Positions 17,223 through 60,504 of a stretch of 64,000 nucleotides of DNA are shown in pieces. The position numbers and the translations under genes are program-made. The first letter of the stretch is position 1. Each line of letters starts with the position of its first letter. The notes below the pieces were generated by a model that saw only the letters and a program-made list of their open reading frames with translations, had not been told where the DNA came from and did no database searches. Origin of the DNA: Clostridiales bacterium (GTDB taxonomy: Bacteria; Bacillota; Clostridia; Lachnospirales; Lachnospiraceae); NCBI GenBank assembly GCA_021204085.1, contig JAJPZY010000090.1:1-64000 (forward strand), in the 5' to 3' direction.

Positions 17223-17495
17223 TCATCGTCTTTTTAACATTCTGAGAATCATCTTCGCCCGCTGTTTTTCGGCGGGCGGCATGGATTCCATCAGATGATC
17301 AATCACAAAGTCGGTTTCCTGTTCGGAAAACCGGATTCCCCGGTCTCTGGCTTTCCCGGAAAAAGCCGTAAGCATACGCATCATTTCCCGGGCGCTGCCT
17401 GTTTTTTCCTCACTCATAAAATTCATAAGAAACTCCAGCTTTTCCGGTGAAAGATTTTGAAAAGCCGGATTGTTTTGCATTTCGTCAGTTGTCAT
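17223..17495 (-). CDS. Unknown 90-aa protein, second of coupled pair
   Basis: I do not recognise it. It is polar and looks mostly helical, with no membrane segment or signal peptide and no cysteines. An NPAFQNLSPEKLEFLM stretch at the start and a basic tail (MILRMLKRR) stand out. Its ATG overlaps the stop of the upstream gene (ATGA), so the two are translationally coupled and probably made in a fixed ratio. It converges on the alarmone synthetase with only three bases between stops. Confidence 0.7.
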   Translation of the reverse strand: MTTDEMQNNPAFQNLSPEKLEFLMNFMSEEKTGSAREMMRMLTAFSGKARDRGIRFSEQETDFVIDHLMESMPPAEKQRAKMILRMLKRR

Positions 17496-17854
17496 AAATC
17501 AAACATCCCTTCTGTCCTCAGGGTTTCATAGGAAGATAACATATCCATTGTGTGAATCATATTATCGATATTATCTGCTTCCTGGGGCGTGCAAAATTCC
17601 TTTATTGCCTGTAGCATATGCAGGGTGCGGTCTGTTGGTGACTCATTTTCGCAGGTATGAAGTTCTGCGGTCTCCGTTTTTGCTTCCGGGTCAAAAAGCT
17701 GCATGGTTTTCTGCAGTTCAATCAGCCGTATCATAAGTGACAGGCCGCGCTGCCGGGTGCTGTCTAAGTATGGCACCATGGCTTTTAAAATTTGCAGATC
17801 CCTGCTCTGAATCAGGGTATCCAGGATCGGTTGTCTGGCTGTCTCATCGCTCAA
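17492..17854 (-). CDS. Unknown 120-aa protein, first of coupled pair
   Basis: Not recognised. I start it at a TTG (17854) that has GGAGGG five bases upstream, giving a 120-aa protein beginning with SDETARQP; the track start (143 aa) lacks a ribosome binding site. Predicted soluble and helical, with a Met/Leu-rich second half (MLQAIKEFCTPQEADNIDNM) and a conserved-looking MFDL end. The reading frame carries only one or two cysteines and no nucleotide-binding or catalytic motif I can see. It overlaps the next gene by four bases. A structural or adaptor role is more likely than an enzyme, but this is a guess. Confidence 0.65.
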   Translation of the reverse strand: MSDETARQPILDTLIQSRDLQILKAMVPYLDSTRQRGLSLMIRLIELQKTMQLFDPEAKTETAELHTCENESPTDRTLHMLQAIKEFCTPQEADNIDNMIHTMDMLSSYETLRTEGMFDL

Positions 17855-18107
17855 GTTATCCCTCCGTTCTGAAAAGACTGTTTGTTCAAAGATTCCCGCC
17901 GTAAAAACAGGCAGAATGTACATGAAATCAGGATACAGGCTGCTATATAATTATGCCTGTATGGCTGAAAATATGAAAAAAGGAGGAACCTTTTTAAAGA
18001 CTATGCGATAACCAATCGGATGAAGGTCAGTTTATAAGACGTTGGAAAACACAGATAAAATCTGAAATTCATAATATAATCAATGAATAAACAAAAAGGA
18101 AACAGCC
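17855..18107. other. Intergenic region, divergent, little content
   Basis: About 250 bases between the minus-strand pair and the 52-aa ORF. It holds an AAAAAGG/CCTTTTT mini-hairpin (17978-17995), a 12-codon ORF with a strong internal AGGAGG that I do not call, and a TATAAT at 18075-18080 without a matching -35. No other feature is seen. Confidence 0.4.
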
Positions 18108-18266
18108 ATGCGGCATATTGTATATGACGGCGAAAGCTTTTATGAACTGGATGAGGAGTGCCTGAAAAAGAAAGAAGAAGAAGAGCGCAGAAAAGAAACT
18201 GCCTGGCAGAGAAAACCGGAATCCGGAACAGATTACAGCGTAAAAAGAAGGAGAAAGCGCAAATAA
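18108..18266 (+). CDS. Small highly charged 52-aa protein, unknown
   Basis: Missing from the ORF track because it is short. It begins MRHIVYDGESFYELDEECLK and continues with runs of Lys, Glu and Arg, ending in KRRRKRK. AAAGGA lies seven bases before the ATG and a TATAAT 28 bases before it, so translation is plausible. The charge pattern suggests a helical, possibly nucleic-acid-binding micropeptide, but composition alone cannot prove it. The minus-strand 107-aa and plus-frame 62-aa ORFs overlapping it have no ribosome binding site. Confidence 0.45.
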   Translation: MRHIVYDGESFYELDEECLKKKEEEERRKETAWQRKPESGTDYSVKRRRKRK

Positions 18267-18310: not shown

Positions 18311-18344
18311 AAAAACCCCGGCATCAGAAATGATACCGGGGTTT
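18311..18344 (-). terminator. Terminator of Cys-rich gene
   Basis: AAACCCCGG.ATCA/TGAT.CCGGGGTTT stem with a 4-base loop and, on the minus strand, a T-run of five. It begins 22 bases after the Cys-rich gene's stop. Confidence 0.8.
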
Positions 18345-18366: not shown

Positions 18367-18573
18367 CTAGAAACAGAAACCGTTGTTATTGTTTCCGCAG
18401 CAGCAGCACAACAGGCAGATCAAAAGCAGGGTTTCGCAGCTGTCGCCGTTGCCGGAAAGGCAGGAAGAGCCGTTGTTTCCGCAGCAGCAAAGCAGCAGAA
18501 TGATCCAGAGAATGGAAGAGCATCCTCCGCTCTCATTTCCGCACCCGCAGTTTGTAGCAGCCAAATCACTCAT
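18367..18573 (-). CDS. Cysteine-rich 68-aa repeat protein
   Basis: An unusual small protein with 14 cysteines in 68 residues and many Gly and Asn. Two halves resemble each other: [20 protein letters not shown] (19-38) and [21 protein letters not shown] (47-67), each a short hydrophobic stretch ending in CCC(C)GNN. GGAGG eight bases before the ATG and a strong terminator show it is expressed. The minus-strand upstream region has CATACTAT, close to the -10 of mother-cell sporulation promoters (CATACANT); this is weak evidence. Function unknown: possibilities are a crosslinked spore-coat or envelope component, or a metal-binding peptide. Confidence 0.75.
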
Positions 18574-18641
18574 GTTTTCAGCCTCCGAATAGATATTTAC
18601 ATTTCATAGTATGTGGAAGGCAGGTCCATGTTTCCGGATAC

Positions 18642-18716: not shown

Positions 18717-19925
18717 ATGGAAAAAATCAAAATGACTACTCCGCTTGTTGAAATGGATGGAGATGAGATGACGAGGATTCTCTGGCAGTATATCAAGGAT
18801 GAACTGCTTCTTCCGTTTGTCGATTTGAATACAGAATATTATGATCTCGGCCTTGTCCATCGGAATGAGACAGATGATCAGGTGACGATTGACGCTGCGA
18901 ATGCAACCGCTAAGTATGGTGTCGGCGTGAAGTGCGCAACCATTACACCCAATGCCGCGCGAGTGAAAGAGTACAATCTGAAAGAAATGTATAAAAGCCC
19001 GAACGGTACGATCCGGGCCATTTTGGACGGCACGGTTTTCCGGGCGCCGATTAAGGTAAAGGGGATTGAACCCTGTGTGAAGAATTGGAAAAAGCCCATC
19101 ACAATTGCCCGTCATGCGTATGGAGATGTTTATAAATGCAATGAGATGGTAATCCCGGGACCCGGGAAGGTAGAACTGGTGTATACGGCTGAGGACGGGA
19201 CGGAGAGCCGGGCGCTTGTCCATGATTTTACCTCTGCCGGTATCGTACAGGGACAGCATAACCTGAATCAGTCCATAGAGAGCTTTGCCAGAAGCTGTTT
19301 TAATTATGCGCTGGATACGAAGCAGGATCTGTGGTTTGCGACTAAGGATACGATTTCCAAAAAGTATGATCATACATTCAAGGATATCTTTGCGGAAATC
19401 TTTGCGGCGGAGTATGAGGAAAAGTTTAAAGAAGCGGGAATTACATATTTTTACACGCTGATTGACGATGCGGTTGCCCGTGTGATGAAGGCGGAAGGCG
19501 GTTTCATCTGGGCCTGCAAAAACTATGACGGCGACGTGATGAGCGATATGATTTCCTCCGCCTGCGGTTCTCTGGCCATGATGACTTCCGTTCTGGTTTC
19601 GCCGTCCGGAGTCTATGAATATGAGGCAGCTCACGGAACGGTGATGCGGCATTATTACAAACATCTGGCCGGTGAAGAGACTTCCACGAATTCTGTAGCT
19701 ACAATTTTTGCGTGGACCGGAGCGCTTCGGAAGCGCGGTGAGCTGGATCAGATTCCGGAGCTTATGCAGTTCGCGGACAATCTGGAAAAAGCCTGCATTG
19801 ACACGATTGAGTCCGGTCAGATGACCAAAGATCTGGCCCTGATCACAGAGATGCCGGATCCGACCGTGCTTAACAGCCTTGATTTTATTAAAGCAGTCAG
19901 AAAGACGTTAGAGAAGATGTTATGA
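18717..19925 (+). CDS. icd: Isocitrate dehydrogenase (NADP+), eukaryote-like type
   Basis: Converts isocitrate to 2-oxoglutarate with NADP+. The sequence is of the homodimeric subfamily shared with eukaryotic IDH ([17 protein letters not shown] at the start; [19 protein letters not shown] with the substrate Ser and Arg residues near 95-112; [11 protein letters not shown] near 308). The ATG at 18717 behind AGGAAGGAA gives 402 aa, the normal length. No citrate synthase or aconitase is adjacent. Its TGA overlaps the start of the ABC-F gene (ATGA), an unusual coupling of an oxidative enzyme to a ribosome-associated ATPase. In a fermenter it would mainly supply 2-oxoglutarate and NADPH for glutamate synthesis. 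Confidence 0.96.
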
Positions 19926-60169: not shown

Positions 60170-60504
60170 AGTTTAACAGGTAAAGTCGATGAGCAAAAAG
60201 AGTACTTTTACAGACTGTTCTACAGAGAGCCGGAGGAGCTGAGATTCCGGAGTACAAGTGTAAAGGGAATGGGTTTGTGAGACGTGACTGCGAAAGGTTT
60301 CTCAGTTTAGTAGCAGCCGCCGTGTTCCTCACGTTACAGAGGGCAGATATCGAATCGAAGCTGATGATATACGTTTTATTGAATGAGCAGCAGATGATTC
60401 TGTATCGGTTGAGGTTGACATGTCCTTCTGACATTGTCGATGAACAAGGGTGGCATCACGATGATTCGTCCCTGATTGTGATTTTTCACAATCAGGGATT
60501 TTTT
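60170..60504 (+). promoter_or_regulatory. T-box riboswitch specific for tRNA-Trp
   Basis: Stem I shows the usual AGTA, AGAGAGCCGGAGG...CCGG and GAA-TGG-G specifier context, so the specifier codon is TGG (60270-60272). The T-box AAGGGTGGCATCACG (60446-60460) is followed by antiterminator partner TCGTCCCT and the intrinsic terminator TCCCTGATTGTG/CACAATCAGGGA plus six Ts. The variable base of TGGN is C, which pairs with G73, the normal discriminator of bacterial tRNA-Trp. Uncharged tRNA-Trp should therefore turn the operon on. The 83-aa track ORF across it is spurious. Confidence 0.93.

Follow-up and report, generated by a model that had tools for sequence, protein, structure and literature searches.

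Within the window, by which we mean the whole stretch of 64,000 nucleotides analysed here, a small cysteine-rich open reading frame at 18367-18573 (minus strand) is the founding sequence of a protein family that accompanies sporulation across the Lachnospiraceae. From its promoter and its distribution we conclude that its product is likely to be specific to sporulation, a mother-cell protein of the sigma-K type. Taken as a whole, our preferred reading goes further, and we hold it to be probable: a protein made late in the mother cell under sigma-K, which would self-assemble and be cross-linked by disulfides as a component of the spore coat or exosporium.

The gene, its product and its family

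The 68-residue product contains 14 cysteines, and has no lysine, arginine, histidine, proline, glutamine, tyrosine or valine. Its residues 18-36 (18466-18522, minus strand) align to residues 46-64 (18382-18438, minus strand) with p about 0.0005 against shuffles of the second half, the repeat unit, present in two copies, being a hydrophobic stretch followed by CCC(C)GNN. An earlier note on this DNA had pointed to that very number of cysteines, to an internal repeat, to a strong ribosome binding site and to a terminator of its own, seeing in them a real gene of an unusual kind, to which it gave no strand. This description holds well. The ATG is preceded at 8 nt by GGAGG (18582-18586, minus strand), a sequence that nearly every relative's upstream region has too, and a 14-bp hairpin followed by a U-run makes an intrinsic terminator at 18311-18344 (minus strand; -24.7 kcal/mol, z -6.2). 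Codon changes with respect to near relatives are partly synonymous (17 synonymous and 6 nonsynonymous against L002), which is the pattern expected of a coding gene, and repeat, start, promoter and ribosome binding site are conserved in more than 100 relatives. The open reading frame is a real gene.

The gene is divergent from that of the NADP isocitrate dehydrogenase, icd (18717-19925, plus strand). On its other side an open reading frame for 52 residues at 18108-18266 (plus strand), rich in lysine, arginine and glutamate and with no family match, converges on the shared terminator region. Further downstream, 17492-17923 and 17223-17495 (both minus strand) code for uncharacterised proteins of 143 and 90 residues that belong to no Pfam or NCBIfam family. 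A relative of the 143-residue gene was found in 84 loci, and it comes after the cysteine-rich gene, on the same strand, in 58 of 89 distinct loci; a CATA-type -10 stands upstream of some copies of these downstream genes, and both may be sporulation genes too. Elsewhere in the window, a T-box leader scores above the Rfam gathering score at 60180-60476 (plus strand).

When public genomes were scanned for the family, 208 places were returned at E<=1e-3, and among the best 80 of these 208, which were taken, nearly all were labelled as Lachnospiraceae genera or as Clostridiales/Eubacteriales bins. The search of the Clostridia that the earlier note had proposed yields homologues across Lachnospiraceae and Clostridia, with the repeat kept. 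We aligned 104 gene copies, which amount to 89 distinct proteins of 64-106 residues with 9-22 cysteines (median 14 cysteines in 73 residues). The N-terminus, residues 1-11 (18541-18573, minus strand), is near-invariant in this alignment, with M, S, D, L, A6 and C9 in all 104 copies, N8 in 103, T7 in 102, G10 in 101, A5 in 99 and C11 in 92, although these counts are inflated, as the set was selected by the start MSDL[AT]A[ATG][NG]C, that is, by the first nine residues. A start of the MSDLAATNC type is also found in most of the Lachnospiraceae homologues retrieved by profile without that filter. Exactly two hydrophobic/cysteine runs, of 8-16 residues per unit, are seen in 104 of 104 members, and the same shuffle test finds the internal repeat significant at p<0.05 in 88 of the 89 distinct proteins. 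The number of cysteines varies while the overall character is kept, only C9, C11, C31 and C59 being near-invariant (alignment A2). Lysine and arginine are both missing from 73 of the 89 distinct members, and the gene is nearly always present as a single copy per genome.

In other families of the same order, the start of the two-unit relatives is shorter (MCGFGCGN or MGCGNNN, for instance). Other clostridial orders have single-unit peptides (L182, L185, L180 and L186), rich in glycine and cysteine, whose core resembles W-I-I-I-L-L-CCCGN and whose promoters are similar; a distant relationship is possible, the matches to L182 and L185 being weak and prone to composition effects.

No Pfam or NCBIfam model scored over its cut-off for the family, homology to ExsY/CotY included, and lowering the bar to E<=10 gave the 68-residue protein no Pfam match either. 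The PDB sequence search returned no related solved structure, the plasmid collection gave no match to the family, and the MSDLAATNC start motif is absent from the literature searched. In some databases such Lachnospiraceae proteins may go under the automatic name of 'chorion class high-cysteine HCB protein', which would be based on composition and come from the silkmoth eggshell; in the literature searched this phrase was met only in a Bombyx mori paper. Among the libraries and papers searched, we did not find the family, its two-unit anatomy or its near-universality in spore-forming Lachnospiraceae described, while the kind of protein, cysteine-rich and located at the spore surface, is already known.

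The promoter and its sigma factor

Aligned over the family, the upstream regions read GG(a)AAC - 16 nt - CATAnnAT[AG]nAnTGTAA - GGAGG - ATG. In the window the -10 element is CATACTAT (18606-18613, minus strand; family consensus CATAnnAT[AG]), which the earlier note had compared to the -10 of a mother-cell sporulation promoter. This proposal gains considerably from the comparison: of the 69 non-redundant upstream regions, 67 have CATAnnnT[AG] at a distance of 32-46 nt ahead of the start, while shuffled sequences contain it in 4% of cases. Sixteen nucleotides before it, AAAC (18630-18633, minus strand) makes a -35 element of the AC form reported for sigma-K (PMC3789822). In Clostridioides difficile, sigma-E and sigma-K share a common -10 and differ by their -35, ATA for the former and AC for the latter (PMC3789822). 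Where the -10 is present in our family, an AC -35 lies at 15-17 nt in 62 of 67 regions, and ATA in 2 of 67. As a sigma-E control we used spoIVA, a sigma-E gene in Bacillus, whose promoters were collected from 20 Lachnospiraceae genomes; among the 17 with a clear -10, 14 had ATA and none AC. It is this difference that allows the CATACTAT promoter to be refined to the sigma-K type: judged by its elements, an AC -35 at 15-17 nt and a CATAnnnT[AG] -10, the predicted family promoter follows the consensus published for C. difficile, which has an AC -35, a spacing of 16-17 nt and a -10 resembling CATAnnnTA. The spore protease YabG (TIGR02855) was unusable as a sigma-K control because it went undetected in 149 of 150 Lachnospiraceae genomes, spore formers included (there was a partial match in G341, and the Bacillus subtilis control was positive), hence the use of spoIVA as a sigma-E control instead.

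The source genome possesses spoIVA together with two genes of the sigma-E/K type, one on contig C91, beside another sporulation-type sigma gene, and one on contig C72; the candidate sigma-K gene falls just below the cut-off of the sigma-K model TIGR02846 (278.8 vs 298.65 bits). When this genome was searched with the extended motif CATAnnATRnAnTGTAA, the cysteine-rich gene was the sole exact match; with one mismatch allowed, the matches did not outnumber those of the reversed control. The conserved TGTAA block (18597-18601, minus strand) follows the -10 closely, near where transcription is expected to begin, and across relatives its conservation almost equals that of the promoter. In some of these, L065 and L057 for example, AACACTT(AC) at the -35 mirrors the block, which might be the site of a regulator or reflect a constraint on the start site.

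A conserved start leading into a variable, cysteine-rich body would also suit a peptide that is made as a precursor and then modified or secreted, MSDLAATN being the leader. Here the surroundings argue in the opposite direction: no conserved processing enzyme adjoins the gene, which has icd on its upstream side and, downstream, an uncharacterised gene on the same strand, separated from it by the terminator; and its promoter belongs to the mother-cell type. We regard such a precursor as extremely improbable. The modified-peptide (RiPP) version was rejected because there is no processing gene.

Co-occurrence with sporulation

Sporulation has been lost in part of the Lachnospiraceae (PMC8340488). 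We assembled a panel of 150 genomes of this family, from 149 genera and with a completeness of at least 95% requested, and took spoIVA (TIGR02836) as the marker of sporulation. The profile matched 104 of the 150 genomes and spoIVA was found in 107, all 104 lying within the 107. A further spoIVA-positive genome, G315, has a divergent copy of 99 residues, with the start MSDLTATNC and a ribosome binding site, that the profile had missed. Counting it, the family is present in 105 of 107 genomes with spoIVA and in 0 of 43 without (Fisher p ~1e-35, uncorrected for kinship). Neither the profile nor a start-motif search gave any family match in these 43 genomes, and since rpoB was detected in 40 of them the absence is not a failure of detection. 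No copy was detected in G246 and G305, two drafts of 160-180 contigs that do have spoIVA, so that the family may be dispensable for forming spores.

To allow for kinship we used an rpoB tree covering 117 genomes of the 150, a quick tree of one gene, read by parsimony. Loss of sporulation is scattered over it, with 28 changes on the best tree. Supported branches provide at least 14 independent contrasts, and the family follows spoIVA in 13.5 of them on average and goes opposite in 0 (sign test, median p 1.2e-4), a conservative result because G315 was still scored as absent. At the level of the order, 196 genomes divide into 76 with both genes, 73 with spoIVA only, 4 with the family only and 43 with neither. 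Of the four family-only genomes, two have weak matches (E 0.002-0.009) and the other two are highly fragmented drafts; G184, counted among those with spoIVA only, carries a divergent family copy. With its 73 genomes having spoIVA only, this table indicates that the family is not universal outside the Lachnospiraceae. The co-occurrence with spoIVA strongly favours the reading that links the gene to sporulation.

This distribution bears on the nature of the product, for which the earlier note had offered two possibilities, coat material or a metal-handling peptide. The second would make it a metallothionein-like peptide, handling metals or redox in the sporulating mother cell or in the spore, and 14 cysteines in 68 residues, arranged in CxC and CCC groups, could well suggest it. 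However, the fixed set of ligands that a metal site would call for is not seen, as few cysteines are fixed (C9, C11, C31, C59) and their number ranges between 9 and 22; the protein is in large part hydrophobic; and the presence of the gene tracks sporulation, the gene vanishing with it. Cysteines that vary both in number and in place speak for structural material rather than for a metal site. We therefore find metal handling very unlikely, while coat material comes out as the better supported of the two.

A candidate component of the spore outer layers

A promoter of the sigma-K type and loss together with sporulation point to a late mother-cell protein, hence likely to a component of the coat or of the exosporium, and on these two grounds this is the role that we consider most likely. 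The process may be imagined as follows. In the source organism, sigma-K RNA polymerase would transcribe the gene late in the mother cell, giving a small hydrophobic peptide, rich in cysteine, glycine and asparagine and almost uncharged. Its two hydrophobic-CCC(C)-GNN units would pack together, driven by their hydrophobic stretches, and the clustered cysteines would then lock the packed units by disulfides, the glycine/asparagine linker between them giving flexibility. The cross-linked protein would add an insoluble layer to the coat or exosporium, with the invariant MSDLAATNC start as a possible docking or targeting tag. For packing, cross-linking, self-assembly and docking alike, we infer what we propose from the anatomy of the protein and from precedent. 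This precedent is strong: CsxA and ExsY/CotY, cysteine-rich proteins that are unrelated, form arrays linked by disulfides, and the same has been proposed for diverse cysteine-rich proteins of spore formers (PMC7333573).

Among the closest parallels is CsxA, from the exosporium of Clostridium sporogenes and of Clostridium botulinum group I, which is likewise cysteine-rich, and which stands at the spore surface with disulfide cross-linking as the proposed principle; it forms a two-dimensional hexagonal lattice by self-assembly, as established by experiment (PMC7333573). No sequence relation between CsxA and our family was detected. CotY/ExsY of the Bacillus cereus group are cysteine-rich, structural proteins of the cross-linked basal layer of the exosporium (PMC7333573, PMC8546674), and CdeC and CdeM of C. 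difficile are cysteine-rich exosporium proteins, of which CdeC self-assembles in Escherichia coli (PMC6101409, PMC7677010). No Pfam match connects CotY/ExsY to our family. CdeC and CdeM are much larger than its members, and are not known to have the two-unit hydrophobic-CCCGNN anatomy. By description, our proteins may also be likened to the YjcZ-type peptides of Bacillus, which are very short and linked to sporulation, with a glycine-rich start and one hydrophobic stretch; they are not known to have CCC clusters or a second unit.

Could the hydrophobic segments rather lie in a membrane? Structure prediction with AlphaFold, using 33 family members, gives two helices of 13 residues at low confidence (mean pLDDT 53.5, pTM 0.29), which gives no ground for arguing a fold or an assembly. 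A small membrane-associated peptide of the mother cell, with a role at the outer forespore membrane or in the late lysis of the mother cell, would agree with the run of 8-16 hydrophobic or cysteine residues in each unit, helical in that low-confidence model, and the single-unit L182 and L185 resemble one short membrane segment behind a glycine-rich start. The purely hydrophobic cores are, however, short for crossing a bilayer, flanking lysine or arginine is missing (73 of the 89 distinct members have none at all), and the heavy cysteine content of every member would be left unexplained. We see this as unlikely. A different alternative keeps the protein at the coat as a low-abundance morphogenetic or nucleating factor, a docking peptide that would recruit other coat proteins and not serve as bulk material. 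Such a role might be expected of a gene nearly always in one copy, whose product has an N-terminus far more conserved than the remainder, but the low-complexity, variable body of cysteine, glycine and asparagine looks more like structural material than like a specific scaffold, and we think it quite improbable.

We come back, then, to a cross-linked component of the coat or exosporium. Lachnospiraceae are among the dominant spore-forming commensals of the gut and spread as spores, the coat of which is little known in its make-up, and many of the Bacillus coat proteins are missing from clostridia (PMC3533761). Most members of the family have no lysine or arginine, so that standard tryptic spore proteomics would miss them, and this may explain why the family is undescribed. 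A bolder view, which we advance tentatively and would doubt sooner than assert, is that a two-unit hydrophobic and cysteine-rich peptide of 64-106 residues, nearly free of lysine and arginine, might be a principal structural element from which Lachnospiraceae build the outer layer of their spores, a solution unlike the larger cysteine-rich lattice proteins of Bacillus and Clostridium, and one that would have escaped notice because it offers trypsin no site and has no family model. At all events, the family marks sporulation almost perfectly in the genomes of Lachnospiraceae (105/107 vs 0/43); its upstream regions form a strong set of putative sigma-K-type promoters for these bacteria, and its members give a concrete candidate for a component of their spore coat.
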